A stretch of DNA of 64,000 nt from Leuconostoc citreum. GTDB lineage: Bacteria > Bacillota > Bacilli > Lactobacillales > Lactobacillaceae. The stretch is from contig NZ_PUFH01000005.1 in NCBI RefSeq assembly GCF_004354555.1, forward strand, positions 248,001-312,000. Reading direction: 5' to 3'. Both the position numbers and the translations under genes were made by a program. Each line of letters begins with the position of its first letter. Position 1 is the first letter of the stretch. The notes beneath the pieces are model-generated. The model saw only the letters and a list, made by a program, of their open reading frames with translations, was not told where the DNA came from and made no database searches. Shown here in pieces: positions 6,002 to 52,689 of this stretch.

Positions 6002-7852
6002 CTACGGCGTCTCACTATTACCAGTATCCAGTACGCTTAATAGATCATTAGCATAGATAAAGAAGCGTTCGGCATAACCTTCTTTTGTGGCGTATTTTCC
6101 TGCTATTTTATTGAGATCTTCAAGATTATCAGTAATAATACCATCCACCCCCAAAATAACCATACGGTTCATGTCTTCGACCTCGTTGACTGTCCAAGCA
6201 AAAACTATTTTACCTTGCTTATGCGCCGTTGAAACATTCTTTTTAGTCAACGTTGTTTCTTCTAATGAATAAGCATCAGACACTGTGTTTGGAAAACTTA
6301 AACTGAAAGGTAAAATATAACTACTAAATAAATCATCATGGTTCTTTCGTAATTGCGTAACGACTTTATAATCAAATGACTGCACAAGAAATTTATTTTT
6401 TCTAAGTCTTGGCCCATATTTGGTTGCAAAATTGTTAACCATGTCTTTTGAATCACGTTTCGTAGTTTTGATTTCAATTAATAATCTTTGGTGAGTCTTT
6501 TCTGCTGCAGCTAAATAATCATCAAAGCTATTAATTTTAGCTGTATAGCCATTTTCTCTAATGGTTGTTTGTTTTAGTTCATCAAGCGTCAAATCGTGTG
6601 GCGCTTTATAAATACGTGCTAATAAAGCAAGATTTTCATCATGCAAAACAACAAACTGATTGTCCTTTGTCTCACGTACATCGATTTCAACGTAATCTGG
6701 TTTTTCTTTTTTAACCGTTTTTTCGAGTGCTGGTATTGTGTTTTGAACCCCATTTCGATTAGTAACACCGCGATGTGAAATAGTTACAATATTGTTTGCT
6801 GCTGTACTAGTCATATAGACATAACTATCATACACACCTTTTATAATGAAAACCAAAAAGAATATCGTAAATATAATTTGCAATAATGACCTTTTTTTCA
6901 GCGTGGTCGATGGCATTGCCGGTTGTTTAAACTCATGTTTCGTATAACTGGTTAACATATTAAAAAAAGTAACAAAATTAAGCGTATTGAAAAAAATAAT
7001 CATGAATTGAAACAGCAAGACACTTAAAATTGCCGTCAATAAAGCAATTCTATTATGATGAATACTATCAATATATATCTGTATAAAATACAAGATGTAT
7101 AACAGGCCTACAGCAAGCAGTGCAATTAGTATGACCAAAAGTACACTGCGCCAAATGAGCTGCCATAAGTTTTTTTGTGTTAAAAGCCAACTTTTTTTGA
7201 TGATGACCGAAATTTTTTGTTTCTCAAAAAAAGTTAGCGGCAAGACCATCAGCATTCGTAGTGAAAAATAAAGGCAAATAATATAGATTGCTACGAGCAA
7301 TGTTGATAAAATAGTATTACTTAAAATAAAATCTAATAAAAAATTTGGCAACTTAACTTTCGCAATAAATGGCGATTTGAAGAAAACACCACTAATGGGT
7401 AATATCAAAACAAAATAAAAAGCGTAAATTAAAAAATTAAAAACACTAATTTTTCCCAGGTCTTTCCCTGTTATTTTAATAATGTTAATCCAGTCCAGCC
7501 GGTGATACACTTTAATATACATCACACCTTGGATTAAAAAAGAAAAATGTAAGAATGTCCCAAAAAACAAAACAATTACCAGAAAGATTATTTCAATCGC
7601 GGCAAAGGGCTGGTAAATCAAAATCAGTAAAATATTAGTATAGGATAAAAAAGGAATATCATTAACATACAAAATAAAACGCATGACATAATTACATATG
7701 GGTAATATTAAATTTATAATCAAGCTATTAACTGCTAATACCAGGAAAAAATATGCGAACCAATCTCTAAAAAAAACGGCCAGAGCGTCTCTTAATAAGC
7801 GATGTTGTTTGTTATGACCCTTTTCTACTTCTGATGTTTTTCTACTTGTCAT
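6002..7852 (-). CDS. Membrane glycerophosphodiester phosphodiesterase
   Basis: A 616-residue protein in two parts. Residues about 20-350 form a membrane region with eight or so hydrophobic segments, as in the GPDPase membrane domain family; residues about 355-600 form a GDPD TIM-barrel domain. Active-site motifs are visible: ISHRGVTNRNGVQNT, EIDVRETKD and VVLHDENL. It probably hydrolyses glycerophosphodiesters, or lipoteichoic acid-type polymers, on the outer face of the membrane. It is the last of three same-strand genes (8349, 7917, 6002), spaced 24 and 64 bases apart, all membrane-linked. The specific substrate is unknown. Confidence 0.9.
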   Translation of the reverse strand: MTSRKTSEVEKGHNKQHRLLRDALAVFFRDWFAYFFLVLAVNSLIINLILPICNYVMRFILYVNDIPFLSYTNILLILIYQPFAAIEIIFLVIVLFFGTFLHFSFLIQGVMYIKVYHRLDWINIIKITGKDLGKISVFNFLIYAFYFVLILPISGVFFKSPFIAKVKLPNFLLDFILSNTILSTLLVAIYIICLYFSLRMLMVLPLTFFEKQKISVIIKKSWLLTQKNLWQLIWRSVLLVILIALLAVGLLYILYFIQIYIDSIHHNRIALLTAILSVLLFQFMIIFFNTLNFVTFFNMLTSYTKHEFKQPAMPSTTLKKRSLLQIIFTIFFLVFIIKGVYDSYVYMTSTAANNIVTISHRGVTNRNGVQNTIPALEKTVKKEKPDYVEIDVRETKDNQFVVLHDENLALLARIYKAPHDLTLDELKQTTIRENGYTAKINSFDDYLAAAEKTHQRLLIEIKTTKRDSKDMVNNFATKYGPRLRKNKFLVQSFDYKVVTQLRKNHDDLFSSYILPFSLSFPNTVSDAYSLEETTLTKKNVSTAHKQGKIVFAWTVNEVEDMNRMVILGVDGIITDNLEDLNKIAGKYATKEGYAERFFIYANDLLSVLDTGNSETP

Positions 7853-8348: not shown

Positions 8349-9410
8349 TTATGATATAAAAATCAAACTATTGATGATAATAATTAATATAACAGCACAA
8401 AAATGAAATTTCTTGTGTTTAACTAAGATTGCAATGTATTCTCTAATTAATGCATTAGGTAAAAAGTATTTACTTGTTTTTGATCCAATGCCATCGATAT
8501 TTAAGCCCACTAATCTTGCAAAGCCAGCCGCTCGGAATACATGATAATCATTCGTTGTAAAAATACCTTTTTGTAAATCAAGCCCATTATCGATGATGAT
8601 TTGTTTAGAAAACAACATATTTTGGTATGTGTTTTTTGACTGATCGTCAACTAAAATGTCAGATTCAGGGACGCCATTTTTGATAGCATAAGCTTTCATG
8701 GCAACTGATTCGGGTAATTTTTCATCTGAACCTTGGCCACCAGACATGATAAGAATCATTTTCTTCTTTGATTTCGCCAACTGCTTTGCTTTAAACTTGG
8801 CGGCAACTAGTATTCTTGAACCTAATAACGGCGAAACGGTATCCCCATTAATTAAGCCGGATCCTAGTACAATTGCATATTCTTTATTGTACTTCGGCTT
8901 AACAATTTTCGTCAAAAAATATGACGCCAAGAATGCCAAAACCCAAAATACAAGATAATTCTGACATGAGTAGGACACATTTTCAATGAAAGTCACAATC
9001 TTGTTATTTGGTAGATAATGATTCAGTAAATTAAACAGGACTGGCATCATAATGAGTAATATGCCAATGACTAAGGTCAGTAAATTACCTAAAGAATGAC
9101 TTTCACGCCGCCAAACAATTAACCCATTCCAAATAAATAAAAAAGCACTGAAGATAGTCAGCAAAACAACAGGTATCAATATCAGTGCCATTAGGATCAA
9201 ATACAGATAAATAACCAACTGGTTATTTATCTGCAGCACAAAAATGGACAGCGTCAGGAAATAGCTCATCATAGTTGCAATAAGTGCCATACCACAAAGT
9301 AAACGATACCTGTTTCTTTTAATTAGAAACCACGTCACTGCTGTTAGTAAAATAGAAACAAATAAACATAATATAGTAAAAATATAGTAAAAATTTGTCA
9401 TACTTCCCAT
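8349..9410 (-). CDS. YdcF/ElyC (DUF218) family membrane protein
   Basis: 353 residues. Five or so hydrophobic segments occupy residues 1-165; a DUF218 domain follows (YAIVLGSGLINGDTVSPLLGSRI, then MSGGQGSDEKLPES, then KNTYQNMLFSK, then TNDYHVFRAAGFAR), and a final hydrophobic segment ends the chain. Related proteins (SanA, ElyC, YdcF) are tied to envelope integrity, with no settled reaction. It is first of a probable three-gene unit with the YxeA-like and GDPD genes. Confidence 0.85.
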   Translation of the reverse strand: MGSMTNFYYIFTILCLFVSILLTAVTWFLIKRNRYRLLCGMALIATMMSYFLTLSIFVLQINNQLVIYLYLILMALILIPVVLLTIFSAFLFIWNGLIVWRRESHSLGNLLTLVIGILLIMMPVLFNLLNHYLPNNKIVTFIENVSYSCQNYLVFWVLAFLASYFLTKIVKPKYNKEYAIVLGSGLINGDTVSPLLGSRILVAAKFKAKQLAKSKKKMILIMSGGQGSDEKLPESVAMKAYAIKNGVPESDILVDDQSKNTYQNMLFSKQIIIDNGLDLQKGIFTTNDYHVFRAAGFARLVGLNIDGIGSKTSKYFLPNALIREYIAILVKHKKFHFCAVILIIIINSLIFIS

Positions 9411-9512
9411 AAATTAACGCCCCTCTTTTCTCAAACCATTGTATCATGAAAAAAATTCAACTCAAACACAATAACCTAGTATCGCACTTGTTACTCATTG
9501 CATGAAAATAAA

Positions 9513-9542
9513 AAAGAACACTGCTTTAAAACAGTATTCTTT
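9513..9542 (-). terminator. Terminator of the M20 peptidase gene
   Basis: Imperfect stem AAAGAACACTG/CAGTATTCTTT (one mismatch), followed on the minus strand by a T-rich run (TTTTTTATTTT). Confidence 0.65.
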
Positions 9543-9596
9543 AACGGTTAAAATCTAAAAAAATGTCATAACAAGTCACGACGTATTTAAAAATAA

Positions 9597-10841
9597 CTAA
9601 GCTAAATATTGGGACACAATTTCTTCATAAACTTTAATAAATTTATGATACATGTCGGCATACACAAATTCATTAACTTGGTGCGCTGTCACATTACCCG
9701 GACCAAAAACCAGTACTGCCATATCAGGATTAACTTTGATAAACTGTGAGGCATCGGTTCCACCAGAAACGCCAATAAAAGGTAACTTTTGCTCTAATAT
9801 TTTTTCACCGACATTTTTAGCGATCTGACTCAACCTACTTTCTGGTGAGGATGATACTGGCGCATGTTTAATTGTGACATCTAAGCGAAGCGTTGCTGAC
9901 AATGTATCATTCAACTGATTAATAATTGTCTCAATGTTTCGGATAATCAGCTCTTGACTTACTTCTGGAATTGTACGTATAAAAACAGTCATTGTTGCAT
10001 GACCAGGTACAGTATTGGGTTGCTCGCCACCACTAATCTCGGTAATAACTGGTGTTGTAGTACCTAAAAAGTCGTTAGCTATACTAGTGAGTGACTCGAA
10101 ATATTTTTTTTGCTGTGATATGAATACCAGCAATGCCTCTACCGCATTAATGCCTAGCTCGGGCATTGAACTATGTGCAGCACGTCCTTCACTTGTCACT
10201 TGATATGATAAAGCACCCTTATGTGCAATTTCCAAAAAATGTTGTTCCTGCGTATTATTTTTGACTATCAACTCATCCAGATTTTCTTGCAAAACAATAC
10301 CCGGTAAAGCTTCTGAACTGTGGTTTTTTGGTAAACCGACAAGCGGTAAACCACTCGGTTCACCAATCAATAAGGCATCAATATGGCTAGCTAAGCCTAA
10401 TTCAACCATTTGTTTGGCACCGATTTCACCACTTTCTTCGCCGACTGTTGCGTAAAATTTGAAAGTACCGTTTAGTTTGGATTCCTGTTTCTTTAAATTA
10501 ACCATAGCAATTGCGGCTGCCATTAATCCAGACTTCATATCAGTTATACCGCGACCAAATATTTTACCATCGATTTTCTCACCGCTCAGTGGATTATGCT
10601 GCCATTTATTCATGTCGCCCAGTGCTACTGTATCTTCGTGTCCATCAAAAGCTAATATTGGTCCATTCCCATTGCCAATTTCAGCAATTACACCTATCCT
10701 CCTGTCAGATAATTTAACAAGTTTATTCGTAATATTGTGCTGATTAAAGAGCGCTTCTAGGTATGCTGCAACATCAGCCTCATGATTACCGGCTGTGTTC
10801 ATCCCGACAATGTCTTGTAACATCTGTTCTGCTTGATTCAT
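9597..10841 (-). CDS. M20 family metallopeptidase (ArgE/DapE-like deacylase)
   Basis: A 414-residue di-zinc amidohydrolase. The metal-binding and catalytic motifs are in order: LAFDGHEDTVA (first His and Asp), GRGITDMKSG (bridging Asp), GEESGE (general base Glu), and a C-terminal His in GNVTAHQVNEF. A lid/dimerisation domain lies between. It is annotated in relatives as succinyl-diaminopimelate desuccinylase or acetylornithine deacetylase; the sequence alone does not decide the substrate. No lysine or arginine pathway genes are nearby. Start ATG at 10841; the gene appears monocistronic. Confidence 0.88.
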   Translation of the reverse strand: MNQAEQMLQDIVGMNTAGNHEADVAAYLEALFNQHNITNKLVKLSDRRIGVIAEIGNGNGPILAFDGHEDTVALGDMNKWQHNPLSGEKIDGKIFGRGITDMKSGLMAAAIAMVNLKKQESKLNGTFKFYATVGEESGEIGAKQMVELGLASHIDALLIGEPSGLPLVGLPKNHSSEALPGIVLQENLDELIVKNNTQEQHFLEIAHKGALSYQVTSEGRAAHSSMPELGINAVEALLVFISQQKKYFESLTSIANDFLGTTTPVITEISGGEQPNTVPGHATMTVFIRTIPEVSQELIIRNIETIINQLNDTLSATLRLDVTIKHAPVSSSPESRLSQIAKNVGEKILEQKLPFIGVSGGTDASQFIKVNPDMAVLVFGPGNVTAHQVNEFVYADMYHKFIKVYEEIVSQYLA

Positions 10842-10941
10842 TCTTTCACACTTTCTAGATCATTAAGTTCATCAATACACATCACTAATAACGCTTAAAA
10901 AAAGCACCTTGTCATTATCATGAGAGACGCCTCTTGATTTT

Positions 10942-12273
10942 TTATAATTGTCCCCATGCAGATGAGGCAATGGTTGGAAATAGATGTACCATACGTTCAA
11001 TTTTACTGGGTCCAAATTTGAATTCAATAGCAGGTAATAAGGCATTAATGACATCATCTGCTTTATGTGATACTTCAGTCGCGCCAACAAGTTTGTGATT
11101 TTTATCAAAAATTAATACATTATCACCCATTTGTTCTTGATCAACTTGTCGATACCAATCATCTGGTATGTGGTTTGTTTCCAGCGTGTAACTTTCCGGA
11201 TGAGCCTTTGCTTCCTCCACCGTAACACCAACTTGCGCTAAACGTGGTGAAGTGAAGACAACTGACGGAATAACCGGATAAACAATTGGTTCTGTTGTTT
11301 CGCCTGCAAATGTGTGCATCAAATACAATGATTCAAAAATAGCTGTGGGCGTTAGCTTAGGCTGAGACTTATCAATAACATCCCCAGAAGCATAGATATT
11401 AGGGACCGAAGTGCGCAAATAATCATCAACGACAATACCCTTTGCGTTGTATTTCACACCAACTTCTTCTAGGCCAATATTTTCAACGTTGGGGATACGC
11501 CCTGTCGCATCAAGTACCCAATCGGTCTCAATCGTTGCACTGCCAGTATTAACAGTATATTGCTGCCCATTTTCAATGATTTCTTCGACAGTTACGCCAC
11601 GCATAAAGGTTACACCGCGCTGGGTTAAATCGTTAATGATTTTTTCTACAAACGGCTGATGATATGCTCGAAGCGCTTTATCGCCTCGCAACAAGACTGT
11701 CACTTTTGCACCCGCTGCATTTGCCATCGTTGCAAACTCCATGGCAATATAACCCGCACCAATCACTGTAACGTGCTGTGGTATCTGCTCTAAGTTTAAA
11801 AATTCTTCAGAATCATGAGCAAAATTTGTGCCCGGAATATCTAATCGATTTGAGCGTAGACCTGTTGATATCACAATTTTATCTGCTGTCTTGGCTTGCC
11901 CCTTGATCTTTACCGTGTGCTCATCGGCTAAGATGCCACGGCCAAAGATAATATCAATATTATTGTTATCTAATAAACCTTGAATGAAGGCTGGCAAACC
12001 ATCAATTACGGCATGCTTGTGTGCCTGATTAGCTGGCCAATTAATTGTTGTCTCACCAGTGACAACCCCATGCACATTTTCCATATGTCTTTGTAACGCA
12101 ACTGGGGAATCAAGAATAATTTTCGCATTGCAACCACGATTAGGGCATGTGCCACCTACTAAATCTTGCTCCACCACGGCTACTTTTTTGCCTTTGGCAC
12201 CTAAGGGAATAGCCCCATCAAAGGTACCGTGCCCACTACCAATGTACAAAACGTCATAATCATATGTTGCCAT
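10942..12273 (-). CDS. FAD-dependent pyridine nucleotide-disulfide oxidoreductase (glutathione reductase-like)
   Basis: 443 residues with an N-terminal FAD site (YDYDVLYIGSGHG), a redox-disulfide motif GGTCPNRGCNAK (Cys43 and Cys48), an NAD(P) site (VTVIGAGYIAMEFA) and the second FAD motif (NIYASGDVID). It is probably a flavin disulfide reductase of the glutathione reductase family. At the C-terminus the usual catalytic His-Pro of glutathione reductase and lipoamide dehydrogenase is replaced: the segment reads VHLFPTIAS, with Phe just before Pro and a His three places before Pro. The substrate is therefore uncertain; mercuric reductase-like and uncharacterised lactic bacterial reductases show similar changes. 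Confidence 0.85.
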   Translation of the reverse strand: MATYDYDVLYIGSGHGTFDGAIPLGAKGKKVAVVEQDLVGGTCPNRGCNAKIILDSPVALQRHMENVHGVVTGETTINWPANQAHKHAVIDGLPAFIQGLLDNNNIDIIFGRGILADEHTVKIKGQAKTADKIVISTGLRSNRLDIPGTNFAHDSEEFLNLEQIPQHVTVIGAGYIAMEFATMANAAGAKVTVLLRGDKALRAYHQPFVEKIINDLTQRGVTFMRGVTVEEIIENGQQYTVNTGSATIETDWVLDATGRIPNVENIGLEEVGVKYNAKGIVVDDYLRTSVPNIYASGDVIDKSQPKLTPTAIFESLYLMHTFAGETTEPIVYPVIPSVVFTSPRLAQVGVTVEEAKAHPESYTLETNHIPDDWYRQVDQEQMGDNVLIFDKNHKLVGATEVSHKADDVINALLPAIEFKFGPSKIERMVHLFPTIASSAWGQL

Positions 12274-44816: not shown

Positions 44817-45515
44817 TTATTGATGTTCTGAAGCGCCAGTATCCGCATCAGCCGTTTTATTAGTTGTTACTGGTTTGTCATTAGCGTGCTCTGAAGCACT
44901 TGTATCTGCATCAGTAGTCTGCTGGCTATCAGATGTCGCTGAATGTTCTGAGGCACCTGTATTCGCATCCTTTACTGACATAGGATTGTCTATTAGAATT
45001 TTGCCTGTCTGTCTGAGATAAGAAGCCACAATAGGCCATAAATCAACTACCCATTCGTTAACGCCACGGTACTGACCTGTTTCATCATGCATCGCCTGGT
45101 AATAATGCATAACATGCTTTTTTGGACCATTACCCGGTACTGGCATTTCAATGCGCGCCACTTTTCCTTCCCGTAAAGCATGAATAACTTGCTTAACATG
45201 TTTAACAGCACGTGGCGGATGAACAGCAGACATAGGATTTCCTACCTGTCCTGGCTTTCTGGGCGCAAGCATATCTTCGGTAGCTAAATTCTTATTATAG
45301 TAAATAAACTGATTATTATCATCAGCAAAAGTTAGTTCTATTGGCATTGTGTTAAGAAAATAGTTCAATTGATTAACTGTCAGCAATCCTCTGTCTAACT
45401 TGACATAAGCATTCCCATCAACTGCATTTGTTTTAAGTGCAGCTTGTTCTAACCAATCACTAGCTGTCATATCAACATCCGAAACTGTCGTGTCGGTACC
45501 ATTGGTGGCATCCAA
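44817..45515 (-). CDS. PAS-domain protein with three tandem ApbE flavinylation motifs
   Basis: 232 residues from a TTG at 45513-45515; no Shine-Dalgarno is evident, and the frame overlaps the upstream FMN reductase by 44 bases. Residues about 43-170 form a PAS domain of the type found at the C-terminus of DUF438 proteins (LNYFLNTMPIELTFADDNNQFIYY, AVHPPRAVKHVKQVIHAL, MHDETGQYRGVNEWVVDL). The tail then has D-A-N-T-G-A-S (183-189), D-A-D-T-S-A-S (202-208) and D-A-D-T-G-A-S (223-229), each followed by Glu-His. This agrees with the ApbE consensus D-x-x-[ST]-G-A-[ST], the last Ser being the FMN attachment site (the middle copy has Ser for Gly). apbE is the first gene of the operon. No signal peptide, so cytosolic. 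Confidence 0.75.
   Translation of the reverse strand: MDATNGTDTTVSDVDMTASDWLEQAALKTNAVDGNAYVKLDRGLLTVNQLNYFLNTMPIELTFADDNNQFIYYNKNLATEDMLAPRKPGQVGNPMSAVHPPRAVKHVKQVIHALREGKVARIEMPVPGNGPKKHVMHYYQAMHDETGQYRGVNEWVVDLWPIVASYLRQTGKILIDNPMSVKDANTGASEHSATSDSQQTTDADTSASEHANDKPVTTNKTADADTGASEHQ
44829..44969 (-). repeat. Tandem flavinylation repeats (three copies)
   Basis: Three coding repeats at 44949-44969, 44892-44912 and 44829-44849 encode D-A-[ND]-T-[GS]-A-S, spaced 19 and 21 residues apart and separated by Ser/Thr/Asp-rich linkers. Each repeat has the extra Glu-His after the predicted flavinylated Ser. Confidence 0.85.
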
Positions 45516-46101
45516 ATTTTTTCGATTCGTACGCTGTATCTTCTTGCTTATCTAATGTATTAATCACCTTAACAAAAGTGATAAACTTACGTAAAACAGC
45601 ATGTATGAAATTAACCGTGTCAGTATCTTTTAAAATACCAAAGTCATCAAACGCTTGCTTAGCATTAGCAACCAGGACCTCGTTGCCTGGCAACACAACT
45701 GCATTGACACCCGGCGCTTCTAAAATTTGACGTAGATGTAATTGTGCGCGGGATGTGCCTTGCGTTAAGTAAGAAGCACCCACAATCATCACTGGTTTCC
45801 CATCAAACGGGTGTACTTTATAAGATAACCATTCAATCACACTTTTTAATGCTGCCGGAACTGTGTGATTATGTTCTGGGGTCGCAATAATTACACCATC
45901 AGCTGACTGTATTTTTTGACTTAAAAATGCTACGGCATGATTATCCACTGTTGCATCATCTTGGGTAAACATTGGTACATCATTAATATCTAACAACTCA
46001 ATGTCAACCTCTTGATTAAATTGCATAGCAATAAACTTTAATAGTGTGCGATTGTATGATTCTTCTGCAATGGAGCCTGCGATACCAACTAATTTTATCA
46101 T
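45472..46101 (-). CDS. NAD(P)H-dependent FMN reductase-like flavoprotein (second copy)
   Basis: About 209 residues from ATG 46099-46101, preceded by GTGAGGG. FMN reductase family: LVGIAGSIAEESYNRTLLK (FMN phosphate loop), DGVIIATPEHNHTVPAALKSVIEWLS and KPVMIVGASYLTQGTSRAQLHLRQIL. It is a clear paralogue of the next gene upstream. The C-terminus (ESKKFGCHQWYRHDSFGC) is odd: it is read in a frame that overlaps the PAS frame. Skipping one base in the A6 run at 45517-45522 would continue directly into the PAS protein, so the native product may be a fusion. Confidence 0.85.
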   Translation of the reverse strand: MIKLVGIAGSIAEESYNRTLLKFIAMQFNQEVDIELLDINDVPMFTQDDATVDNHAVAFLSQKIQSADGVIIATPEHNHTVPAALKSVIEWLSYKVHPFDGKPVMIVGASYLTQGTSRAQLHLRQILEAPGVNAVVLPGNEVLVANAKQAFDDFGILKDTDTVNFIHAVLRKFITFVKVINTLDKQEDTAYESKKFGCHQWYRHDSFGC

Positions 46102-46111
46102 TTGAAATCCC

Positions 46112-46720
46112 TCACTTGTCATCCCAAGAAAAAGCCTCAGACTGGGCTTTTTTTATATCATCCGTATTGTTCAGCGCTGCAGATATATCCACAAATAACA
46201 AAAAGTCCTTAAACAGGCCATCTAATTGTTGACTTGTTTCTTCATCAATCAGTCCTTGTTCCGAAAACGCTTCCAATGAATGTCCTAATAAAAATTCAGA
46301 CCCTGGCATGACACGCGCCTTAATTTCTGGTGAATCAAGCACCTGTCGAAGTTGGGCTTGCGCCCGCGAGGAACCCAATGAACCATAAGAAGCGCCAGTA
46401 ATCATGACTGGTTTATTCACAAAAGGATGTGAAGTATACGATGCCCATGCTAGCGCATTGAGTAATAATGCCGGAACAGCATGATCATATTCTGGCGTAC
46501 CAATGATGACACCGTCTGCTGGCAGAATTTTGTTTATTAGCGCTAATGCTGGTTCTGGCATGAATCGGTCGGCAGTTTTCTTGAAAATCGGTAAATTAGT
46601 TAAATTAATAAGCTCGATAGTCGCTTCCTCTGAAAAATGTGTTTTCATGTACTGTAACAAATGTCTATTTGTCGAAGTCGAGGATTCGGAGCCAACTAAT
46701 GCAACAAAGTTTTTCATCAT
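46112..46720 (-). CDS. NAD(P)H-dependent FMN reductase-like flavoprotein (first copy)
   Basis: 202 residues. Flavodoxin-like motifs: FVALVGSESSTSTNRHLLQYM, DGVIIGTPEYDHAVPALLLNALAWAS and KPVMITGASYGSLGSSRAQAQLRQVL. It uses NAD(P)H to reduce FMN or another acceptor. Second gene of the apbE operon and 10 bases before the second copy. It could deliver electrons to the flavinylated PAS protein. Confidence 0.87.
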   Translation of the reverse strand: MMKNFVALVGSESSTSTNRHLLQYMKTHFSEEATIELINLTNLPIFKKTADRFMPEPALALINKILPADGVIIGTPEYDHAVPALLLNALAWASYTSHPFVNKPVMITGASYGSLGSSRAQAQLRQVLDSPEIKARVMPGSEFLLGHSLEAFSEQGLIDEETSQQLDGLFKDFLLFVDISAALNNTDDIKKAQSEAFSWDDK

Positions 46721-46808
46721 ATCGCCTCATTTTTTGTCTTTATTTTCACAAGTGCTTTGTACATCGTTCTTGATGACAAATCAATCGTTATTGTGTATCA
46801 AAAAAATG

Positions 46809-47735
46809 TCAGCGCACGCTATCAAAACGTTGGATTAACCCAGAGGTTAACACGACTTCATTTTGCTTTGTAATAAATATTGCTTCAATATTTGGCAAAC
46901 TTTCAACTAATCGTTTACCGGCCTCTAATCCTTGATAGAACGCAATTGTTGACCAAATTTTGCCGTCAATAGATAACTTGCTGACAATCGTCACACTGGC
47001 CAAACTATTTTCAATGGGAAATCCTGTTTGACTGTCAAACATATGGTGATATGTCCGATTTCCTACTATGAGTCGCCTTTCATAGATACCAGAAGTGCCA
47101 ATAGCACACGCTGACGTTCTAATATAACCAACAACTTTGTGACGTAAATCACTTGGATTTTGGATACCTATTCGCCATGCTTGATTATCAGATAAATGCT
47201 GTCCAACTAGTAAAATATTACCTCCAAGATCGATTATGCCTGATTTAATATGATTTTTGAGCCATATCGTTTTGATATAATCAGCAATGTAACCTTTCGC
47301 TATACCACCTAAATCAAGGGCCATACCTTTTTTCGTCAAAAAGACGCTACACTGGGCTTTATTTAATATAATATTCTCAGGATTAATCTGTGTTATAACA
47401 GCTTCAATAGCTTTTTTTTCAGGCTTATGAGCCCCTTCAAAGCCAATTTTCCATAGTTTAACTAGTGGCCCAATGGCAACATTGAATCCAAGTCCTAATT
47501 GACTAGCCTGCACAGCTTGCTGTATCAAGAAAAAAGTATCCAGAGACACTTTAACCGGTATAATACCAGCATTTTGATTAATACTGACAACCTCTGAATG
47601 GTCTCGGTTAACAGTTAAGCGATTCTCATAATTTGTAACTAAGCGACGCGTCTCTACAAGTATATAATCTGAGACATCATCAAAAATCGTTAAATTAATT
47701 TTTGTTCCAAGTGCTTTAAATGACTGTTTTATCAT
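46809..47735 (-). CDS. apbE: FAD:protein FMN transferase ApbE
   Basis: About 308 residues (ATG 47733-47735; a GTG two codons earlier is possible). Transfers FMN from FAD to a Thr or Ser in target proteins. Motifs: FKALGTKINLTIFD, AIGPLVKLWKIG, MALDLGGIAKGYIADYIK, SGIIDLGGNILLVG and YHHMFDSQTGFPIEN, the Mg/FAD site and catalytic region. No lipoprotein signal is seen, so it acts in the cytosol, unlike exported ApbE forms. Its likely substrate is the three-motif PAS protein in the same operon. Confidence 0.92.
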   Translation of the reverse strand: MIKQSFKALGTKINLTIFDDVSDYILVETRRLVTNYENRLTVNRDHSEVVSINQNAGIIPVKVSLDTFFLIQQAVQASQLGLGFNVAIGPLVKLWKIGFEGAHKPEKKAIEAVITQINPENIILNKAQCSVFLTKKGMALDLGGIAKGYIADYIKTIWLKNHIKSGIIDLGGNILLVGQHLSDNQAWRIGIQNPSDLRHKVVGYIRTSACAIGTSGIYERRLIVGNRTYHHMFDSQTGFPIENSLASVTIVSKLSIDGKIWSTIAFYQGLEAGKRLVESLPNIEAIFITKQNEVVLTSGLIQRFDSVR

Positions 47736-49096: not shown

Positions 49097-49576
49097 TCAA
49101 GACAGTTGTTTTATGTCATCATATAAACTTAATATTTCTAACAAGCTTACCGTGACTTCAGCACCCTTATTTCCTGCCTTAGCACCTGCACGCTGTTGCG
49201 CTTGTTCTAGTGTATCTGTTGTTAAGACACCAAACACGATAGGCGTATTCGTACTTAAGCTAACTTGAGATACCCCATTTGCTACACCGTTGATGACAAG
49301 ATTGTAGTGATCTGTATCGCCCTTAATAACTGCGCCCAATGTGACAATCCCATCAAACATACCTGATTCTGCCAACTGACTCGAGACCATAGGAATCTCC
49401 AAAGCACCTGGAACCCGGAAAACACTGATGTGATGATCGTCAACACCATGCATACTTAATGTATCCCGCGCGCCTTTTAATAAAGGCTCAGTCACTAATG
49501 CATTAAAGCGGCTAACTACGATGGCAATACGCCGTTCTTCATGCCCTGTTAATTTTCCTGTGTATATCATTGTCAT
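49097..49576 (-). CDS. ribH: 6,7-dimethyl-8-ribityllumazine synthase
   Basis: 159 residues. Condenses the pyrimidine product of the pathway with 3,4-dihydroxy-2-butanone 4-phosphate. Motifs: [52 protein letters not shown] (catalytic His) and [17 protein letters not shown]. Last gene of the riboflavin operon, 17 bases after ribBA. Confidence 0.97.
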
Positions 49577-52472: not shown

Positions 52473-52531
52473 AAAGTATTTAGATCGATTCAAAAAAGAC
52501 AGACTTATCCTAGCTAAGTCTATTATTTTAA

Positions 52532-52670
52532 ATCTTCTCCCATCCAGACTTTAACTGTCGGTCACAGAATTACACTGTGTCAACTGCATTATTAATAAAT
52601 AATGCAGGTCACGGACTTAGATCTTAAAGATCTTTACCGTCGGTCGGGAATTACACCCTGCCCCGAAGAT
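52532..52670 (-). ncRNA. FMN riboswitch (RFN element)
   Basis: Conserved RFN segments read on the minus strand: ATCTTCGGGGCAGGGTG at the 5' end, AATTCCCGACCGACGGT, AAGTCCGTGAC, GTGTAATTCTGTGACCGAC, then GTCTGGATGGGAGAAGAT at the 3' end closing P1 (ATCTTC/GAAGAT). FMN binding should favour the downstream terminator and shut off ribDEBAH. One variable arm carries the perfect hairpin CTGCATTATT/AATAATGCAG. Confidence 0.97.
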
Positions 52671-52689
52671 TAATTAATTTAACATTTAC

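Follow-up and report, generated by a model that had tools for sequence, protein, structure and literature searches.

Among the closest known relatives of the system considered here are the flavin reductases FRedA and FRedB of L. johnsonii, which form a heterodimer with two sites for flavin mononucleotide (FMN), oxidize reduced nicotinamide adenine dinucleotide (NADH) and produce H2O2; O2 was shown to be an acceptor for the pair itself (PMC4500961). The accompanying LjPAS is a 28 kDa protein encoded by an independent gene, and PAS-FMN reductase fusions in other species were noted in the same paper. Furthermore, an ApbE attaches FMN covalently in vitro to two FMN_red proteins of Lactococcus that have motifs in their tails, and the predicted Ser/Thr residue is required for this (PMC11334425). 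Here we analyze a 64,000 nt stretch of Leuconostoc citreum DNA (GCF_004354555.1, NZ_PUFH01000005.1, 248,001-312,000), hereafter called the window, whose own numbering is used for all coordinates in it. It contains a minus-strand gene run with apbE, two FMN_red genes and a gene for a PAS_10 protein with an ApbE-type tail (Table 1). We consider it fairly probable that the products of this run form a cytosolic flavin reductase module of the same type as FRedA/FRedB/LjPAS, take electrons from NADH and pass them to FMNs attached by ApbE to the PAS-borne tail.

Like the L. johnsonii system, the window encodes a PAS_10 protein and, side by side, two paralogous FMN_red proteins. However, LjPAS has been treated as a regulator, whereas here the PAS family carries ApbE-type sites and apbE is part of the operon. 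In the accessible part of PMC4500961, the terms 'ApbE', 'covalent' and 'flavinyl' do not appear in the text, nor is PAS linked to flavinylation there. The Lactococcus FMN_red proteins share with the window family a C-terminal extension with one or two motifs and an adjacent apbE, but the window family reaches seven tail motifs and includes forms with three PAS domains; PAS as a whole word has no occurrence in the accessible part of PMC11334425. Since a protein from an L. lactis plasmid was found to be an FMN_red-PAS_10 fusion with two motifs behind apbE, the Lactococcus proteins tested in that study may belong to the same family. Several FMN sites in one protein are also the hallmark of the multi-flavinylated proteins, for which longer electron transfer was proposed (PMC8238504). 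Those proteins have repeated FMN-binding domains and occur mostly outside the cytosol, whereas the window protein has short sites on a disordered tail; with no match to FMN_bind (PF04205) in the window genome, it falls outside the repeated-FMN_bind class. Flavinylation in the cytosol was conceded in the review exchange of that paper, and the soluble fumarate reductase of Klebsiella is a cytosolic ApbE target (PMC12052999). In HcrA/HcrB of L. plantarum, a pair of FMN_red proteins is linked to an organic acceptor (PMC10295242), but a PAS-borne tandem tail is described for neither of these two systems in the accessible parts of the papers. Cytosolic ApbE targets, flavinylated FMN_red proteins, PAS-FMN_red fusions and multi-flavin proteins outside the cytosol are already known. 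A PAS-linked tail as a multi-site ApbE target was not found in the open-access papers searched.

A preliminary description of this DNA had reported three ApbE sites in the tail, DANTGAS, DADTSAS and DADTGAS, each followed by Glu-His. This reading of the sequence is correct. Sites 1 and 3 agree with the canonical motif D-x-x-[ST]-G-A-[ST], which is also given as the ApbE motif in PMC11334425, but site 2 has Ser instead of Gly, hence we speak of two canonical sites and one variant. The DNA of the three copies differs at synonymous positions, and not one of 100,000 shuffles of the window tail contained three motifs. According to AlphaFold2, the PAS_10 fold is confident up to residue 183, and the predicted local distance difference test (pLDDT) score is below 50 across residues 184-232, i.e. 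in the tail. For counts among relatives, we used the relaxed motif D-x-x-[ST]-[GS]-A-[ST] and 102 related PAS tails that are distinct open frames, some of the records belonging to the same species. These tails contain 284 motifs compared to 1.4 expected; at least one is present in 92, at least two in 84 and at least three in 64 tails, with a maximum of seven. When Gly is required, 239 motifs remain, and 83 of the 102 tails have at least one and 67 at least two canonical sites. The motif is conserved while the spacers vary among relatives. As background, only 12 motifs were counted in the 252,872 amino acids encoded by 841 other genes from the 50 loci of named genomes (the named loci), which together with the shuffles rules out chance or a simple repeat as the origin of the tail motifs. 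Nor is the motif a general feature of PAS_10 proteins, because it was absent from all seven comparison proteins examined, which all have a hemerythrin domain and in three cases also DUF438; in the window protein, Pfam found PAS_10 alone, with neither DUF438 nor hemerythrin ahead of it.

The tail could also be an unmodified repetitive linker, and variants with Ser or Ala in place of Gly are indeed common (Ser in 45 of the 284 motifs). But we regard this as very improbable in view of the motif enrichment, the tie to apbE, the motif-free hemerythrin/DUF438-type proteins and the flavinylated FMN_red tails of Lactococcus (PMC11334425). Judged from sequence, flavinylation of the PAS-borne tail is very likely, and the window tail itself would be among the modified ones. 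The preliminary description had named loss of the repeat with retained apbE linkage as an observation that would speak against flavinylation. Most tails (92 of 102) keep the motif; among the ten without it, that of L083 is shortened, that of L091 has a frame change, and eight have diverged D-x-x-x-[SG]-A-S-like repeats, including L101 and L102, which do adjoin apbE. In L091, a member of genus g37 (positions 6337-7023, minus strand), the frame change lies at the start of the tail and removes all motifs; it may be real or a sequencing error.

The proposed linkage to apbE was borne out across genomes. Among 201 sampled genomes of the family, 67 have a strong match to the PAS protein (E 1e-40, a threshold set in the gap between 1.4e-45 and 6.1e-20), and all 67 have apbE, compared to 54 of the 134 others. 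Kinship inflates such genome counts, hence the count by genus (apbE in 20 of 20 genera with PAS vs 7 of 20 without) and the contrast within the window's own genus are safer: there, none of the seven other sampled genomes has a strong PAS match, and none has apbE. With a third of the family genomes positive, the expectation that a PAS-coupled form with tandem sites would be unusual did not hold. What does hold is the core of the preliminary description, since the sequences support a cytosolic ApbE, a disordered tail of the PAS protein with sites in tandem, and a pair of FMN reductases encoded in one gene run, an arrangement that is conserved through Lactobacillales. In the 50 named loci, apbE lies within the fetched flank in 19 cases, and clustering of the genes yielded besides apbE mostly genus-specific neighbours, thus a common wider neighbourhood is not supported.

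The view of a free-standing PAS protein next to two independent reductases had to be given up. In 47 of the 50 named loci, we found a single FMN_red-PAS-tail protein with a second FMN_red gene directly upstream; L042 (at a contig start), L063 (no FMN_red seen) and L083 (broken) were not taken as fusions. The fused proteins are mostly about 400-510 amino acids long, but three Aerococcaceae proteins (L085-L087, at about 9215-11923) reach 882-901 amino acids. They have one FMN_red domain and three PAS_10 domains (confirmed by Pfam in L085, read by eye in L086 and L087), and their 9, 7 and 8 motifs, respectively, of which 4, 3 and 3 are canonical, lie between and after the PAS domains. In a sample of 299 genomes of the class, 20 fused loci were fetched from outside the family. 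Each has two or three motifs and is preceded by an FMN_red gene, and in 18 apbE appears at the edge of the flank. Some genera possess a separate PAS-tail gene. In genus g37, such a gene of 246-247 amino acids occurs in six of the seven genomes (the seventh is L091); three motifs are present in five of the six intact tails, and the sixth combines two motifs with a variant. In L193 and L194 of this genus, the FMN_red pair is one or two genes away from apbE. This layout closely resembles that of L. johnsonii, including the distance between the two FMN_red genes, about 11 bases in L193 and 12 bp in L. johnsonii (PMC4500961). Finally, relatives also have HcrB-like FMN_red-reductase proteins of about 800 amino acids with a terminal motif.

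In the window, the frame changes within the linker near 45,515, between FMN_red2 and PAS. Residues conserved in the family persist before the possible ATG start (Met16 of the TTG-started open reading frame, at 45470), with Thr9 invariant and Thr10 conserved in at least 90%, whereas the C-terminal residues of FMN_red2 are unlike the family. Of the 50 named loci, alignment A1 includes 32 and alignment A2 includes 29, and L085-L087 were omitted from both. The split may be natural, or it may reflect decay or an assembly error, three possibilities that the sequence does not distinguish; the split copy may still work.

The genome of the window organism has two apbE genes and, as mentioned, lacks FMN_bind domains, which makes the PAS and FMN_red tails the evident ApbE targets. 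The DNA pattern of the canonical motif has 11 matches in the whole genome, compared to three for the reversed control. Three of the 11 lie in the two apbE modules, to which canonical motifs in plausible substrates are confined; the only two other full motifs are DMRTGAS in a 261-amino-acid frame and DGSSGAS in a frame of 47 amino acids. By eye, we take the 261-amino-acid frame to be PurC-like. The second module (L007, 3171-9227, minus strand) consists of an FMN_red protein with DATTGAS on its own tail, ApbE and a PAS_10 protein without motif, and it adjoins a LysR regulator, fumarase, a soluble FAD_binding_2 reductase and a transporter-like protein.

Joining the biochemistry of the L. johnsonii pair (PMC4500961) with the flavinylation of the Lactococcus FMN_red proteins (PMC11334425) leads to the following relay model. 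The two FMN_red proteins would pair and oxidize NADH. ApbE, a cytosolic enzyme encoded in the same run, would load FMN on up to three tail serines, two in canonical sites and one in the variant. The disordered tail would be carried by the PAS domain, which in most relatives forms one protein with the second FMN_red subunit, and its FMNs could act as mobile covalent carriers reduced by the FMN_red pair. The flexible tail would then hand electrons to soluble acceptors, possibly reductases of the fumarate/enoate type dependent on flavin adenine dinucleotide (FAD) in some genomes and O2 in air. Both the electron flow along the tail and the identity of the acceptor are proposals of this model. Alternatively, the tail may hold its flavins on a tether so that they occupy the FMN sites of the two reductases, with no relay at all. 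The L. johnsonii pair binds FMN with a dissociation constant of about 2 uM and is partly empty on purification (PMC4500961), and the tail sites of the Lactococcus proteins were modelled near the flavin pocket (PMC11334425), which would both suit such captive cofactors. However, 64 of the 102 tails have at least three motifs and thereby exceed the two sites of a heterodimer, the Aerococcaceae proteins have seven to nine motifs distributed between and after three PAS domains, and in L114, L116 and L124 a PAS-tail gene lies beside apbE with no FMN_red gene in the fetched flank (FMN_red is encoded elsewhere in those genomes). We therefore consider captive cofactors rather unlikely.

Regarding the acceptor of the proposed relay, a fumarate-type reductase is one candidate, because it is encoded beside the second module and because, in L126, the FMN_red pair is immediately preceded by a gene for such a reductase. 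A gene of this type occurs in the fetched flank of eight of the 50 named loci, five of which are from Companilactobacillus.

Several observations weigh against the relay. Of the 67 strong-PAS genomes, 18 have no protein that strongly matches the second module's FAD_binding_2 reductase (E <1e-100, read by hand for these 67), hence a fumarate-type reductase as obligate acceptor is not supported. Genes, motifs, conservation, the tie to apbE and the fused architecture can be taken from the sequences; the relay in the window protein is proposed from these and from analogy. Its site 2 is non-canonical, and the protein is split by the frame change, which could be decay or an assembly error. The diverged repeats beside apbE in L101 and L102 weigh mildly against a strict connection of motif and apbE, and G155, which encodes a PAS-tail protein yet gave no match to FMN_red at E 1e-15, fits no reading well. 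Moreover, LjPAS acted as a brake on the reductase assembly, in that the active complex formed more slowly, and the LjPAS transcript drops on aeration (PMC4500961). These findings would fit a regulatory role, in which the tail flavins would report the redox state to the PAS domain, which in turn would tune the reductase; PAS domains commonly serve as sensors. But a sensor would not need many sites per protein, an output domain is lacking, and the published LjPAS assays used protein made in E. coli, with flavinylation unmentioned in the accessible part of the text (PMC4500961). Hence, a redox sensor or regulator appears quite improbable to us.

On a broader scale, and with considerable reservation, it is possible that Lactobacillales widely use soluble flavin wires, in which FMN_red-PAS proteins with two to about nine covalent FMNs on tails or linkers represent a cytosolic counterpart of multi-heme carriers and LjPAS is a multi-flavin carrier and the natural acceptor of FRedA/FRedB. 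If true, this would provide a function for the PAS-linked flavin reductases that occur on plasmids and in one of three family genomes in the sample (67 of 201), recast LjPAS, so far a regulator of H2O2 production, as a cofactor-bearing carrier, and place multi-site flavinylation inside the cell. It would also make testable which of the covalent flavins supply electrons for H2O2 formation and to which soluble acceptors these fermenters turn. For engineered flavin tags, sites of seven residues repeated along a flexible tail would furthermore be a natural precedent.

The coordinates and the minus strand given for the gene run in the preliminary description were correct (Table 1). The window ApbE scores 240.3 bits against a curated cut-off of 25.6 (PF02424) over a full-length domain. 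By eye, no export signal was seen in the proteins of the run, and the ApbE domain begins at residue 9 of 308. The solved chain closest to the window PAS domain is 2QKP, a PAS domain from Streptococcus mutans (Z 16.9, root-mean-square deviation 2.1 over 137 residues, profile E 4.9e-34). We assign no ligand to the PAS domain, because the nearest solved chains, 2QKP and 3CAX, are uncharacterized and PAS domains of the heme and LOV types come much further down the ranking.

Table 1. Features of the apbE gene run and the upstream riboswitch in the window.
Feature	Position	Strand	Evidence and remarks
apbE, FAD:protein FMN transferase, 308 amino acids	46809..47735	-	Pfam ApbE, E 3.5e-71, residues 9-287
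FMN_red1, FRedA-like partner subunit, 202 amino acids	46112..46720	-	Pfam FMN_red, E 2.2e-32
FMN_red2, FRedB-like subunit, 209 amino acids, last residues apparently out of frame	45472..46101	-	Pfam FMN_red, E 1.1e-38; fused to PAS in relatives
PAS_10 protein with linker; TTG-started open reading frame, possible ATG start at 45470	44817..45515	-	Pfam PAS_10, E 1.8e-29
Disordered tail with three ApbE-type sites, DANTGAS / DADTSAS (variant) / DADTGAS	44817..44966	-	Sequence and pLDDT
FMN riboswitch, ahead of the riboflavin genes	52528-52674	-	Rfam RF00050, 120.6 bits

The start of the riboflavin operon had been placed 1.3 kb upstream of the gene run, but it is the last gene of the operon that lies there, with its end at 49097 and thus 1.36 kb from apbE. 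This last gene is presumably ribH, as named by eye from the sequence, and a gene for a HerA-type ATPase sits between it and apbE. The riboflavin genes behind the RF00050 riboswitch lead towards the apbE run.

A Y_phosphatase3 (PF13350) gene was observed near the module in eight of the 50 named loci (L051, L052, L054, L056, L070, L073, L074 and L079), and in L193 and L194 it adjoins apbE. Since FMN is attached through a phosphoester, a link of this gene to flavin removal is conceivable, which is pure speculation. The module also occurs on plasmids of Enterococcus, Lactococcus and lactobacilli; altogether, the PAS-tail protein has matches in 114 plasmid records, of which 95 are from Enterococcus and 100 cover at least 80% of the query, which indicates that the module travels on plasmids. 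On the Lactococcus lactis plasmid pUC11A (L202), an annotated Crp/Fnr regulator (784-1455) precedes apbE with one small gene between them, which hints at oxygen or redox control.

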